Shown: piece by piece, positions 26,641 through 31,685 of the stretch | How positions within the stretch are numbered: the first letter of the stretch is position 1 | Layout of the letters: the number at the start of each line of letters is the position of its first letter | Assembly (NCBI RefSeq): GCF_022179725.1 | Contig: NZ_BPRC01000007.1 | Span: forward strand, 124,001 to 188,000 | Direction: 5' to 3' | From: Methylorubrum aminovorans | GTDB lineage: Bacteria > Pseudomonadota > Alphaproteobacteria > Rhizobiales > Beijerinckiaceae | Length of the DNA: 64,000 nt | The notes under the pieces: model-generated | What the model was told of the DNA's origin: nothing | Seen by the model: only the letters and a program-made list of their open reading frames with translations | Databases searched by the model: none | Made by a program: the position numbers and the translations under genes

Positions 26641-29600
26641 ATGAAACAGACTGCCTCGATCAGCCTCGACAGCTTCGACCCGGAGGTGCTCGCGGCGGCC
26701 CGCGAGGTCGCTCGGCGGGCGGGTGTGCCGTTGGAGAGCTGGATCGCCTCCGTGGCCGTGCCGGAGACGGCGAAGCCGGGCCCGCGGCGGCGACGCGCGG
26801 ACGCCGCAGCTCCGGCCAAGGACGGAGCCAAGGACACAGTTAAGGACGCGGGCACGGATCAGACGCGGCGGGTCGGAGGGCGTGCGGCGGACAAGGCGGC
26901 CGCACCCCGGAAGGAGACACCGCAGCACAAGGGCCGCGAGGCGACTCCCGTCGCTGCGGCCTCCGAGGATTTTGCAGCACCGTCGCCCGCAGCCGCGCTC
27001 GAAGCGTCGATCGGCGCGATGATGCGGCGGCTCGACGCCCTCGACCGCTCGATCAGCCAGGAGCGCGAGGCCTCGAAGGCCGACGCGGCTCGGATGATCG
27101 GCGATATCGAGCGCAAAGTCGGCGAACTCGCCGGTCAGCTCAGCGCCCCCCGGCCGCTCGGCCGTCGCGGGCGCCCGCTCGCCACCGAGGTGCGCGACGC
27201 CGTCGCCGAGGTGCGCCGCCGCCAGCGCGAGCTGGAAGAGGGCATCGCCGAGTGGAACAGCGCCAGCGCGGGCGAGCCCCAGCACAGCGAGTCGGCGGCC
27301 CCGGAGGTCTCCGAGGACGTGCCTGTCGCGGCTTCGAACGCGGAGGCGGCCCACGACCAAGTGGCGGCTCACGGCCACGAGCCGTCGCCGGCCATCATCG
27401 AGCTGCAGCGCGAGACGAGCCGGCTGCGCGACGCGCTCGGCGGCCTCGCCACCGGCCGCGACGTGGGCGAGCTGGAACAGACCATGCAGGCCGTCGCGAG
27501 CGACCTCCAGCGGGCGCGCGATCCGCAGGAACTCGCCGCCATCGCCGCCCCGATCGAGCTGATGCGCGTCCAGGTGGAGCGGCTGGCCGGGGATGTGGCC
27601 GAGAACGTTCATGCCCGTGTCGCGGGCGAGGTGGAGCGCTTGGTCGCGAAGGTCGATGGCGTGCTCTCCGGCGCCCTCACGGGCCCGGCCGACGAGAGCG
27701 CCCTCGACAGCGTGTTCCGTGAACTCGACGAGATCCGCCGCCTCGTGGCGGCCCTGGCGGGTCCGGAGCGGATCCAGAGCCTCGCTCAAGGCGTGCAGGC
27801 GATCAGCGCCCAGATTGCGCAGCTTCAGCGCGACGAGGATGCGGGCATGGCCGCCATCAAGCCGCTGCTGGAGGAGATCCGCGGCGAGCTGAAGACCCCC
27901 GATCCGTCCCGCGAGTTGCCCCGCGAGCTGCTCACCCGTTTCGAGGCGCTCGCCGAGCGGCTCGGCCGGACTGAGGCGGGGCCCGTCGGCGAGCTGATCG
28001 AGCGGCTCGAAACCGTGGCCGAGAAGGTGGATCGCGTCAGCGCGGGCGGCAGCGGTCTCGACGCCCTGGAACGTCACGTCCTCGCCCTGGCAAGCCGGCT
28101 CGACGCGCCGCGCGATCCCGATCCGGCCGTGGCGCGCCTCGAACGCTCCATGGGCGATCTGCTCGCTCAGGTCGCGGCCCTGCGCAACGGGTCCGACGTC
28201 GAAGCCGCCGTCGAGCGCGCGGTCCGCGAAGCCGTGGCGGGCGCGTCCTCTCCGCTCAAGGCGGCCGGCGGCGATGTCGAGCTGCTGCGCGCCGATCTCG
28301 CCGAACTGCGCGCGAGCCAGAAGGGCTCGGACCAGCGTCTTCAATCGACGATGGAGGGCGTCCATTCGGTGCTGACGCGCCTGAGCGAGCAGCTCGACCG
28401 CACCATGACCTCCGCCGCCGCGCTCACCGCCGCCGCTCCGCAGGAACGGGCGCCCCTCGGGCTCTCCCCGAGCGAGCGCGTCTCTCAGGAGCGCCCCGCC
28501 GCCCCGAAAGCGGCGGCCGAGTCGCAGGCCCGCCCGCGCCGTACGGCGCCGTCCGAGGAGATCGGCGGGACCGAGTCGGTTCGCCTCTCCGACGAATTGC
28601 TGGAACCCGGCGCCGGCCGACCCGGCCCCGGCCGCCCGGCCGCGCCGGAGGCGATCCCGGCCGCCGGCAGCACCGACATCAAGACGAGCTTCATCGCCGC
28701 CGCCCGCCGCGCCGCGCAGGCGGCGCAGGCGGAAGCCGCAACGGAGACCCCGCTGGCGGCCCGGCTGCGCGACAAGGTCGCTCCGGCCGCCCGTATGCCG
28801 GGCTCGGACACCGCGCCCCTGTCGCGACTCCGCGGGGCCCTCGACGGCCGCCGCCGCACGCTGCTGCTCGGCCTCGCCGCCGTCGTTCTGGCGCTCGGCG
28901 CCTACCAAGCTTTCCTGGCGGGCAAGAGCGCGCCGGCCGGAGACGCCGTCTCCGCGGATGCCCGCGCCGTGGAGACGGCGTCTCCGGCCGCATCCTCCGA
29001 TGCTCCAGCCGGCCGCAGCGCGGAGGCCGAGCCGGCCCCGGCGCCCGCCGCTCCGTCTCAGGCCCCGGCCGCTCAGGCGTCCTCCGAGACGACGCTCCCG
29101 GCCGCAGCCCCGACGAGCCCGGCCGATCCGACGACCACCCAGTCCATCGCCGAGCCGAAGGCCCCGACGGGCAAGCGCGCGCTGCCTCAGGTCGCCGGCA
29201 TGGCCGCACTCGGACCGGACCTCGCCGGGCTGCCGCCGTCCCTGGCCAAGCTCAAGCAGGACGCGCTCGACGGCGACGGTGCCGCCGTGTGGGAGATCGC
29301 CGCCCGTCAGGCCGAAGGCCGCGGGGTGACGCGCGACCTCGCGCTCGCCGCCAAGTTCTACGAGCGGCTCGCGACGGCCGGCTACGCCCCGGCGCAGTTC
29401 AAGGTCGGAAACGCCTACGAGAAGGGCTCGGGCGTGATCCGCGACGTCGAGAAGGCGAAGCTCTGGTACGGCCGCGCCGCGGATCAGGGCAACATCCGGG
29501 CGATGCACAATCTCGCCGTCCTGCATGCCGAGAACCCGGCCGCCAACGGCAAACCGGACTTCGCGAACGCCGCCAACGCCTTCCGCCGGGCGGCGGAGCA

Positions 29601-29946
29601 CGGCGTGCGCGACAGCCAGTACAATCTGGCCGTGCTCTACGCCCGCGGCCTCGGCGTCGGCCAGGATCTCGTGCAGTCCTACCTCTGGTTCTCGGCCGCG
29701 GCCGGGCAGGGCGATGGCGAAGCGGGCCGCAAGCGGGACGAGGTCGCCACGAAGCTCTCGCCGAAGGATCTCACCGAGGCCAAGAGCCTCGCCGCGAGCT
29801 TCCGGGTGAAGGCCGTCGATCCGGCCGCAAACGAAGCGCCGTCGGCGAAGGCGACCGCCACGGCGCCGATGTCCCTGATGGGCGCGCCGTCGCCGGGCAT
29901 GCCGAACGGCACGTCCTCATCGGCACAGAAGCGCGTCGGGGTCTGA
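26641..29946 (+). CDS. PodJ-like polar scaffold protein with SEL1 repeats
   Basis: 1101 residues. The start MKQTASISLDSFDPEVLAAA resembles PodJ-family N-termini. Residues about 110-640 are predicted largely helical and coiled coil with low-complexity linkers. A single membrane helix lies near 741-760 (LLLGLAAVVLALGAYQAFLAG). An Ala/Pro/Ser-rich periplasmic linker follows, then three to four SEL1 repeats from about 870 (AAVWEIAARQAEGRGV, AQFKVGNAYEKGSGV, YNLAVLYARGLGVGQD). In Caulobacter PodJ this architecture organises pole development and recruits histidine kinases; the same role here is inferred. A 20-bp perfect inverted repeat lies in the linker-coding DNA. It appears monocistronic, with a terminator downstream. 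Confidence 0.85.
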   Translation: MKQTASISLDSFDPEVLAAAREVARRAGVPLESWIASVAVPETAKPGPRRRRADAAAPAKDGAKDTVKDAGTDQTRRVGGRAADKAAAPRKETPQHKGREATPVAAASEDFAAPSPAAALEASIGAMMRRLDALDRSISQEREASKADAARMIGDIERKVGELAGQLSAPRPLGRRGRPLATEVRDAVAEVRRRQRELEEGIAEWNSASAGEPQHSESAAPEVSEDVPVAASNAEAAHDQVAAHGHEPSPAIIELQRETSRLRDALGGLATGRDVGELEQTMQAVASDLQRARDPQELAAIAAPIELMRVQVERLAGDVAENVHARVAGEVERLVAKVDGVLSGALTGPADESALDSVFRELDEIRRLVAALAGPERIQSLAQGVQAISAQIAQLQRDEDAGMAAIKPLLEEIRGELKTPDPSRELPRELLTRFEALAERLGRTEAGPVGELIERLETVAEKVDRVSAGGSGLDALERHVLALASRLDAPRDPDPAVARLERSMGDLLAQVAALRNGSDVEAAVERAVREAVAGASSPLKAAGGDVELLRADLAELRASQKGSDQRLQSTMEGVHSVLTRLSEQLDRTMTSAAALTAAAPQERAPLGLSPSERVSQERPAAPKAAAESQARPRRTAPSEEIGGTESVRLSDELLEPGAGRPGPGRPAAPEAIPAAGSTDIKTSFIAAARRAAQAAQAEAATETPLAARLRDKVAPAARMPGSDTAPLSRLRGALDGRRRTLLLGLAAVVLALGAYQAFLAGKSAPAGDAVSADARAVETASPAASSDAPAGRSAEAEPAPAPAAPSQAPAAQASSETTLPAAAPTSPADPTTTQSIAEPKAPTGKRALPQVAGMAALGPDLAGLPPSLAKLKQDALDGDGAAVWEIAARQAEGRGVTRDLALAAKFYERLATAGYAPAQFKVGNAYEKGSGVIRDVEKAKLWYGRAADQGNIRAMHNLAVLHAENPAANGKPDFANAANAFRRAAEHGVRDSQYNLAVLYARGLGVGQDLVQSYLWFSAAAGQGDGEAGRKRDEVATKLSPKDLTEAKSLAASFRVKAVDPAANEAPSAKATATAPMSLMGAPSPGMPNGTSSSAQKRVGV
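28934..28990. repeat. 20-bp perfect inverted repeat inside the podJ-like gene
   Basis: CGGCCGGAGACGCCGTCTCC (28934-28953) is exactly the reverse complement of 28971-28990, separated by 17 nt. Each arm is itself nearly palindromic (GGAGACG/CGTCTCC). It encodes part of the periplasmic linker just after the membrane helix. In mRNA it would form a very stable hairpin. Confidence 0.7.
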
Positions 29947-30070
29947 AAACCGTCCCGACCGGCCCGGGCCGAAGCAACCGCGCCATGCCTTGACGCGCTT
30001 GCTCGTCGGCGCGCCGCCGGATCGGGATGCGGTCCGAGCCCGTCTCACGCCGCGCGATATTCCGTGATCC

Positions 30071-30108
30071 AAAGGGCCGTGCTCCGAACAGGGGCGCGGC
30101 CCTTTTGC
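30071..30108 (+). terminator. Rho-independent terminator after the podJ-like gene
   Basis: AAAGGGCCG (30071-30079) pairs perfectly with CGGCCCTTT (30097-30105) and is followed by further T. It lies about 125 nt beyond the podJ-like stop on the plus strand. Confidence 0.7.
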
Positions 30109-30242
30109 TGTGTCCGTGTGCCGTCGCTCTACCGCCGAAGAAGGCCGAAACCACGCGGTCAGCGACCCTCAGTAACGCTTCGTCTTCCTCATATACGTTC
30201 GAGCAAGAAATCTCATCCATCCAATATAAATAATATTTCTAT

Positions 30243-30258
30243 GGATTAAAATTAATCC
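30243..30258. promoter_or_regulatory. Operator-like dyad in the AT-rich patch
   Basis: GGATTAA (30243-30249) and TTAATCC (30252-30258) are perfect inverted half-sites around AA, about 100 nt before the ATG of the small secreted protein. A regulator site is an inference from symmetry and position only. Confidence 0.4.
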
Positions 30259-30356
30259 CATTACTGTGATAAAACACACTTCAAATCGAAAATCTGCATG
30301 TTACGTGCGCTCTTGCTTCAAGATTAATCGGAATTTGAACAAGAGAGGAGCACAAC

Positions 30357-30683
30357 ATGCTGCGCTTCGCATCATTCGCATCGGTCCTCCTGTTTGCGTT
30401 TGCGACCACGGCTACCCCGGTCTCCGCGCAGTCGGCTCGATCCAAGAAGGGAACCTGGACCGCGCTGCCCTCGCAGGTCGTGCCGCCGGCTCCGCCGCGC
30501 GTCGCCCATGGCGGCTTCGGCGCGCTTCCGTTCGCGGCGGGCGGGTCCTCGGGCTACTGCGACATCGTGGTGAAGCGCGGCGGCGGCAATCCGACCCAGG
30601 ACATGACCGGCTCGATCGGCCACGCGAAGAGCTATCAGGCCGGCGGCGGCGGCCCGGCCCGGCAGCGGGTCTGCTCCCGCTGA
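30357..30683 (+). CDS. Small secreted protein of unknown function, 108 residues
   Basis: Signal peptide MLRFASFASVLLFAFATTATPVSAQ, then about 83 mature residues rich in Gly, Pro, Ser and Arg, with two cysteines (GYCDIVV and RVCSR) that could form a disulfide. A very good GAGAGGAG site precedes the ATG, and a hairpin follows the stop. I do not recognise the family. The coding part has normal high GC, but its upstream region is AT-rich, which could mark a strong promoter or a junction of acquired DNA. Confidence 0.65.
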   Translation: MLRFASFASVLLFAFATTATPVSAQSARSKKGTWTALPSQVVPPAPPRVAHGGFGALPFAAGGSSGYCDIVVKRGGGNPTQDMTGSIGHAKSYQAGGGGPARQRVCSR

Positions 30684-30706
30684 GATCCCGGCGCTTCGAA
30701 GGAAGA

Positions 30707-30734
30707 ACGGCGCCCTTCCCGCGAGGGGCGCCGT
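30707..30734. terminator. Bidirectional hairpin between convergent genes
   Basis: ACGGCGCCC (30707-30715) pairs perfectly with GGGCGCCGT (30726-30734) around a 10-nt loop. It lies between the stop of the secreted protein (plus) and that of the AlgX-like gene (minus), where a shared terminator is expected. No long T run. Confidence 0.55.
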
Positions 30735-30740
30735 GGTTCG

Positions 30741-31685
30741 TCAGACCAGGGGTTCCGTCTCCGCCTGACGCACCGGCTTCTCCATCCCCGGCCTCTCGTA
30801 GGCCGCGACGTCGAAATCGTCGCTCGGGATGCGGACGAGGAAGCGCTCGGCCATCTCGAACATCAGGATGTCGGGGCGCACTCGCTCGACGTAAGTCCAG
30901 TCGATGCTGGACGACCAGACGAAGTGCATCTCGCGGAAGGTCTCGGCGAGGAAGCTCGTCAGCATGATCGGCGCGAAATGCGCGTAGGAATCCCCGAACA
31001 GCACCAGGGTGCGCGGGTCGGCCTGGGGGGAGGGGTTCCGGTAGATGACGTGGGCGCCGACATGCAGGTCGCCCGCCCGTCCCGCCGCCTCGTAGGATTC
31101 GACCAGCGGGCTGGCATAGCTGCGCGCGGCGTCGCGATGCACCGCCCAGTTCTCCACCGTCTCCCGCGGCCGGTCGGGCAGCTTGTCACCGAGATCCCAC
31201 AACCCGTCATGGGGAAAGCGCGGGCGTTCGGCGATATCGGGCGGAGCGACCGCACCGCAGGCGCGCAGCAGCGCCCGGTAGCCGACCAGGCAGCCCTCGT
31301 AGGTCCAGTGGGAATCGGTGCGGCGATAGAGCGGCGCCCCGTCATCGCGGGCCGCGCGCAAGGGGGCGACGAGATCGACGTAGCCGCCCATCCCGGCGAG
31401 CCGCCGGGCAAGCCGGCGGGCCGGCGACAGGCGCGGGTCGTAGTCGAGGTCGAGAGTACGGTCGTCGTAGACCGAGAGCTTTTCCGGCACGACGGTGTGG
31501 ACGTAGCGGATGCCGAGCGCCTGAGCGCGGGCGGCGCGGGCCTCGATCAGCCGCGCCCAGCGGCGCAGGTGCCACCAGCCGGCGAGGGAGCGCCGGTATT
31601 GCAGGAGCACCCCGTTGGTGCCCCCGATCAGGAACAGCCACCCGTCGCGCCCCCGGTGGATGATCTCTCTGTTCCTGCGGGCCAT
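30741..31685 (-). CDS. AlgX/AlgJ-like SGNH family protein (putative polysaccharide O-acetyltransferase)
   Basis: 314 residues. Motifs match the SGNH domain of alginate O-acetylation proteins AlgX/AlgJ: TVVPEKLSVY, the catalytic Asp-His pair in RTDSHWTYEG, and the serine in LVLFGDSYAHF. The N-terminus (REIIHRGRDGWLFLIGGTNG) is also typical. No signal peptide is obvious, unlike periplasmic AlgX, and no MBOAT acyltransferase partner is adjacent, so acetyl transfer to a polysaccharide is only a suggestion. The start at 31685 is a clear ATG. It is divergent from the 2'-5' RNA ligase family gene. Confidence 0.78.
   Translation of the reverse strand: MARRNREIIHRGRDGWLFLIGGTNGVLLQYRRSLAGWWHLRRWARLIEARAARAQALGIRYVHTVVPEKLSVYDDRTLDLDYDPRLSPARRLARRLAGMGGYVDLVAPLRAARDDGAPLYRRTDSHWTYEGCLVGYRALLRACGAVAPPDIAERPRFPHDGLWDLGDKLPDRPRETVENWAVHRDAARSYASPLVESYEAAGRAGDLHVGAHVIYRNPSPQADPRTLVLFGDSYAHFAPIMLTSFLAETFREMHFVWSSSIDWTYVERVRPDILMFEMAERFLVRIPSDDFDVAAYERPGMEKPVRQAETEPLV

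Follow-up and report, generated by a model that had tools for sequence, protein, structure and literature searches.

Comparative analysis of a 64,000-nt stretch of DNA (the window) and of 111 genomes of its genus, Methylobacterium/Methylorubrum, suggests that an AT-rich patch upstream of a small exported protein is a promoter that depends on an activator acting near −41.5, and that it belongs to a very small regulon, specific to the genus and linked to inorganic carbon. We put the probability of this reading at about 60%. The same promoter module precedes the window's gene (family A, near-invariant core GGNPTQDMTGSIGHAKS), an unrelated exported family (B) and, at a few loci, a beta-carbonic anhydrase gene directly. 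The promoter thus possibly ties two, perhaps three, orphan exported families to a carbonic anhydrase and a transporter that may carry bicarbonate. This would be the first functional lead for two families of orphan exported proteins in a common genus of plant-associated methylotrophs, and the module offers a handle for finding the regulator. The serine cycle and the ethylmalonyl-CoA pathway of these bacteria consume bicarbonate and CO2; a full-text literature search returned no title or abstract start that describes the module.

The patch had been singled out in a preliminary description as AT-rich DNA unlike the rest of the window, and base composition bears this out. The window has a mean GC content of 0.693, 160-bp segments of it have a standard deviation of 0.046 and a minimum of 0.325 at 30183-30342, and segments with a GC content below 0.50 form one cluster only (30093-30428). 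The AT-rich promoter region (30183-30356, plus strand) leads into a coding part of normal GC content. Both of the flanking hairpins described earlier are present, as judged by folding energy and z scores. The first (30071-30105, plus strand; −30.5 kcal/mol, z −4.23), whose 3′ arm runs into UUUU, is probably the terminator of the upstream gene (26641-29946); it is the upstream border and lies outside the promoter module. The second (30707-30734, plus strand; −29.2 kcal/mol, z −3.55 on the plus and −2.52 on the minus strand) forms the downstream border, between the family A gene and a convergent gene (30741-31685). A consensus scan did not list either hairpin as a terminator, nor did it find a sigma-70 consensus promoter within 29900-30800.

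Upstream of the gene, 170 bp are alignable in 14/14 orthologues, with a GC content of 0.34-0.40 throughout. Mean pairwise identity among the orthologues is 0.68 over the 180 nt upstream versus 0.25 in the block from −200 to −380, and the patch is conserved and is probably an activator-driven promoter. The perfect palindrome reported earlier (GGATTAAAATTAATCC) is indeed located at 30243-30258, but only its left half, the GGATTAAA box (30243-30250, plus strand), is identical in 14/14 orthologues. The right half varies in the 13 others, so that the perfect dyad is unique to the window's own genome among the 14, and it was rejected as a functional site on this ground. Ahead of the box lie a block that is mostly kept in the orthologue alignment (ACGTTCGAG, 30195-30203, plus strand) and TCATCC (30213-30218, plus strand), the counterpart of the TAATCC/TATTCC upstream box of A promoters, a box that is an inverted copy of GGATTA. 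Behind it lie a TGTG-N8-CAC(T) dyad (30265-30280, plus strand), the putative activator site centred at about −41.5, and a −10-like element, TACGTG (30302-30307, plus strand), the TA of which begins 23 nt after CAC. The order of the module is therefore upstream box, GGATTAAA, TGTG-N8-CAC dyad, 22 nt and −10-like TA.

A pattern taken from family A promoters only (GGATTA-N14-19-TGTG-N8-CAC) was found at 89 places in 67/111 genomes of the genus, versus 7 places for the reversed pattern used as a control. Automatic sorting of the 88 fetched places put 33 before A and 43 before B; L088 and L103 lie directly before beta-carbonic anhydrase, and L058, L101, L105 and L110 precede B genes or putative B remnants. 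Altogether, 82 of the 89 places precede A, B (putative remnants included) or beta-carbonic anhydrase, and the seven outside this set (six fetched places with no such gene and one further, unfetched place) equal the number predicted by the reversed control. A sequence-only model (R1), built from 22 module rows with intact TGTG and CAC and favouring such modules, was run across the genus with stricter filters and gave 100 matches at E ≤ 0.01 among the matches listed, up to 22 of which are its own training rows. Within 500 bp and on the same strand, 34 of these 100 lie before A and 62 before B; the remaining four are the carbonic anhydrase promoters of G055, G085 and G021 and a putative B remnant in G004. 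The window's module scores 40.6 bits, this copy being one of the training rows. At the same threshold 11/45 A places, among them the paralogue A′ of the window's own genome, and 25/87 B places have no R1 match (the stronger 87 of 119 listed B places, without the 32 weaker ones). When the module was defined more strictly, in a form that the window's own copy does not satisfy, it matched 5 of 298 genomes, all of the window's genus. The best reading of these searches is that the module marks a small genus-specific regulon of Methylobacterium/Methylorubrum.

Most A paralogues carry TAATCC or TATTCC, about 23 nt, GGATTAAA, 14-15 nt, TGTG-N8-CAC and a −10-like element, and TAATCC, TATTCC or TCATCC stands 28-30 nt before GGATTA in 32/33 family A modules; the paralogue A′ (L002) departs from this layout, keeping the dyad with no clean GGATTAAA. 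A second GTG-N8-CAC dyad occurs 31-33 nt before GGATTA in 46/49 rows from B and carbonic anhydrase promoters. B promoters have a mean GC content of 0.48, versus 0.37 in the more AT-rich A promoters. The upstream box thus differs between A and B promoters, and the core and its spacing are kept. A TA begins at offset 23 after the dyad in 30/33 A rows and 32/43 B rows, versus 10/33 and 11/43 for the next best offset, which fixes the gap between dyad and TA hexamer at 22 nt in both families. From this constant distance between dyad and −10, the dyad is predicted to be centred near −41.5. The −10 element of M. extorquens is reported to be without a conserved T at −7 (PMC9320726), which is compatible with the TAnnTG of the module. 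Together with the lack of a sigma-70 consensus promoter, the layout looks like that of an activator-dependent promoter.

An even-spaced dyad at a predicted position of −41.5 would suit a class II activator of the Crp/Fnr type. The TGTG and CAC(A) half-sites of the module are 8 bp apart, as Crp/Fnr-type sites require, and the base after CAC is A or T in 32/33 A rows and 40/43 B rows. The inner bases depart from the TGTGA...TCACA of a canonical Crp site: instead of T, mostly G or A precedes CAC (G in 23/33 and A in 10/33 A rows; G in 36/43 and T in 4/43 B rows). Class II Crp/Fnr promoters also differ from the module in that the latter has an extra GGATTAAA box and a second dyad or TAATCC. LysR-type sites are odd-centred T-N11-A sequences. 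The operators of the LysR-type regulators CbbR and QscR share the theme of carbon assimilation in the genus with the module but differ in centring, as the module's dyad is even-centred and an odd-centred T-N11-A operator was not found in it.

LuxR/TraR proteins target an ATGTGC-N6-GCACAT box, and many modules resemble it in their right half-site CGCACAT, an ATGTGC-like half-site and GTGC-N6-GCAC spacing; the full ATGTGC-N6-GCACAT sequence is present in some A and B rows and absent from the window copy. A LuxR-type quorum-sensing activator, for which the dyad would be a tra/lux-type box and the exported proteins density-controlled public goods, is nevertheless improbable. The left half-site of the window copy is TGTGA, and a full-text literature search for the tra-box sequence found no paper. 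Such an activator would also leave GGATTAAA and the link to carbonic anhydrase unexplained, and a TraR-like box is a weaker match to the dyad than a Crp/Fnr-type site.

The geometry of the promoter also bears on whether the dyad might be a repressor operator over the −35 region, the genes being derepressed under a stress on the envelope or on pH that has nothing to do with CO2. We consider this unlikely. A repressor bound to the dyad, at about −49 to −34, would be placed to block RNA polymerase, and small exported proteins fit envelope stress, but no −35 consensus lies under the dyad and the scan found no sigma-70 promoter, which favours activation; in addition, two unrelated families keep the dyad at one fixed distance from the −10-like TA.

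Family B comprises small exported proteins with the sequence HMSSYVxDPxHDPRSLHSQRxGTGQLLGAPM, in which no similarity to A is visible when the two are compared by reading. In the window's own genome the module before the B gene (G000:C1) differs at one base (GGTG for TGTG), and downstream of B come first the gene of a beta-carbonic anhydrase (Pro_CA, E 5.6e-50) and then that of a SulP transporter with a STAS-like domain (Sulfate_transp, E 2e-61). The module could in principle be an old promoter copied along with its gene, A and B being distant homologues, in which case its sharing would say nothing about co-regulation. Both are short exported proteins, as this would predict, but the lack of visible similarity between them makes such an origin quite improbable, as do the upstream boxes, which are not alike in A and B although the core and its spacing are conserved, and the position of the module directly before the unrelated carbonic anhydrase gene, with no B between, in G055, G085 and G021.

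The link of the proposed regulon to inorganic carbon comes from the neighbourhoods of B and from co-occurrence. Among 27 hand-chosen, non-random neighbourhood loci (7 + 20), of which L185, L187 and L231 hold no B, 15 of the 24 B loci viewed have carbonic anhydrase immediately after B, with SulP next in 12 of these 15; an adjacent carbonic anhydrase is absent at the other nine. Across the 111 genomes (B at E ≤ 1e-3, the carbonic anhydrase orthologue at E ≤ 1e-90; Fisher counts that ignore kinship), all 37 genomes with A also have B. By the same kinship-blind counts, the carbonic anhydrase orthologue occurs in 73/81 genomes with B versus 7/30 without B, and in 60/66 genomes with the module versus 20/45 without it, while 23/111 genomes have neither A nor B nor the carbonic anhydrase orthologue. 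Six module-bearing genomes have no carbonic anhydrase orthologue at E ≤ 1e-90, among them G039, where a frameshift or an assembly error has divided the gene ahead of SulP into two parts that lie in different frames (L190:9700-9964). The window's A gene has no carbonic anhydrase beside it, and its carbon link therefore comes entirely from the shared promoter and co-occurrence.

Pairs of carbonic anhydrase and SulP genes are known from Acidithiobacillus ferrooxidans, where can2-sulP is predicted to move bicarbonate, the can2 transcript falls as CO2 rises, and the SulP clade next to can2 is set against other clades that are STAS fusions (PMC6458275). The adjacent Pro_CA and Sulfate_transp genes of the window's genome, and the SulP gene at 12/15 B-carbonic anhydrase loci, resemble such pairs. 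Unlike them, the cluster in the window's genome is headed by the orphan small exported protein B and has a genus-specific promoter module that is shared with a second orphan family. Since its SulP has a STAS-like domain, the parallel with can2-sulP (PMC6458275) is inexact, and a CO2 response of the cluster is a prediction. This SulP also falls below the NCBIfam cut-offs for BicA (98 bits versus 880) and for sulfate permease. The linkage of B, carbonic anhydrase and SulP, the co-occurrence and the parallel with can2-sulP lead us to infer that A and B may take part in a response to carbon supply or to a coupled pH state.

Two further features were seen at these loci. A third family of small exported proteins, C (TGTGGGPETTITAPH...IC.GC), is encoded next to A′ in 6/6 fetched A′ loci (L002:1716 onward, downstream of A′, G000:C4; L051, L052, L053, L136 and L138) and no more than 2 kb away from B in three other genomes (L189:10546, L228:7024 and L073:2625). 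At L184:10538-10574 (minus strand) a second GGATTAAAA stands upstream of the module that precedes B in the window's own genome and forms an inverted repeat with TTTTCATCC.

Several candidate regulators were considered. In 6/27 loci a gene near B or carbonic anhydrase encodes a membrane protein that has a class III nucleotide cyclase domain (PF00211) (L187:7682-9022, L189:7051-8430, L228, L229, L231 and L238). A route from a bicarbonate-stimulated class III cyclase through cAMP to Crp was rejected as a general partner of the module, since a search of the window's genome gave no class III cyclase match at E ≤ 1e-20 and the cyclase is present in genomes without the module; in genomes with no R1 match at E ≤ 0.01, the surroundings of the cyclase gene (12 neighbourhoods, about 10 kb each) held no carbonic anhydrase or B. 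The cyclase is kept only as a lead. A Crp/Fnr homologue near B (L189 and L228) was uninformative, as it has relatives in 111/111 genomes (1 to 23 in each at E ≤ 1e-30, scored up to 23); G012, G032, G047 and G089 have 22 or at least 23 Crp/Fnr-like matches each, an expansion in part of the genus. An HWE kinase with a Cache domain precedes B at 5/27 loci only (L186:10003-12060, L188:7078-9078, L224, L230 and L236, where the match is split into three frames) and was set aside as not general.

A mechanism is proposed in which an activator would bind the dyad, with its predicted centre at about −41.5 and no −35 element at that place, and would recruit RNA polymerase to the weak −10 element. Activation would be helped by a second upstream site, which would be TAATCC in A promoters and, in those of B and carbonic anhydrase, the second GTG-N8-CAC dyad, and also by a factor that reads GGATTAAA. 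With less assurance, we suggest that the signal may be the supply of inorganic carbon (CO2/bicarbonate) or a linked pH state, and that A and B could be secreted proteins or proteins of the envelope, produced upon induction of carbonic anhydrase and bicarbonate transport. An extended form of this proposal is tentative: a dedicated activator might run an inorganic-carbon response comprising carbonic anhydrase, bicarbonate transport and the orphan exported proteins A, B and probably C, which might act outside the membrane, in carbon uptake or as secreted signals built around NPTQDMTGSIGHAKS.

Presence and absence across genomes, and homologues of the protein, had been recommended as checks in the preliminary description. 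A full-length orthologue of the window's protein occurs in 14/111 genomes of the genus (its own counted), and some family A member in 37/111; a search for the core of the protein across 397 genomes of the taxonomic family, in 43 genera, matched 14 genomes, all of the window's genus. The patch is accordingly not a region conserved in all relatives with normal composition, being AT-rich upstream of 14/14 orthologues. That the locus is an AT-rich, horizontally acquired cassette, as first hinted, is very improbable and largely contradicted already: the composition of the patch contrasts with the window and members of family A beyond the orthologue group lie elsewhere in the genome (19/27 named loci have none of the tested neighbours), but the coding part has normal GC content, 8/8 named orthologues share the same neighbours, the gene has no match in phage and plasmid collections, and the promoter has stayed AT-rich in 14/14 orthologues. 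A self-contained or mobile cassette at the window locus was therefore rejected. The earlier observation as a whole is confirmed, and its interpretation holds as far as regulatory-looking DNA before a small exported orphan protein is concerned, but not for the perfect dyad as a site or for the cassette.

The family A gene of the window (30357-30683, plus strand) encodes a small exported protein of 108 residues and follows a Shine-Dalgarno sequence, AGGAG (30346-30350, plus strand), where AGAGGAGCA is kept in the orthologue alignment. Its length, strong Shine-Dalgarno sequence and two cysteines (Cys68 and Cys106) agree with what had been described, and secretion takes the form of a putative signal peptide recognised by reading: the N-terminus is hydrophobic, ends in VSA|QS and has the look of a signal peptide of the Sec type (residues 1-24; 30357-30428, plus strand). 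Between Cys68 and Cys106 lies the core NPTQDMTGSIGHAKS (30588-30632, plus strand), near-invariant in an alignment of 27 sequences; the longer core C-x-x-V-V...GGNPTQDMTGSIGHxK is likewise near-invariant across 27 family A members. The median NG86 dN/dS of the reading frame is 0.26 (91 orthologue pairs), with a dN of 0.010 and a dS of 0.17 in the core, and the frame is under purifying selection. M. thiocyanatum, one of the named relatives, has a protein 92% identical to the window's. The assignment to an unknown family stands, as the window's protein matched 0 families in Pfam, NCBIfam and PHROGs; a Pfam scan of the 27 members gave one weak DUF5538 match (E 0.0033) in one of them, and a PDB profile search with the family found 0 relatives at E ≤ 1. 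An AlphaFold prediction from 27 sequences gave no confident fold (mean pLDDT 51.5), the low-confidence model having a helix at residues 2-18. Other small proteins at L054 (minus strand) and L055 end in GNP(T/S)QDTTGAIGHPKSxNSxG and have no cysteines, and may belong to a wider class around the family A core.
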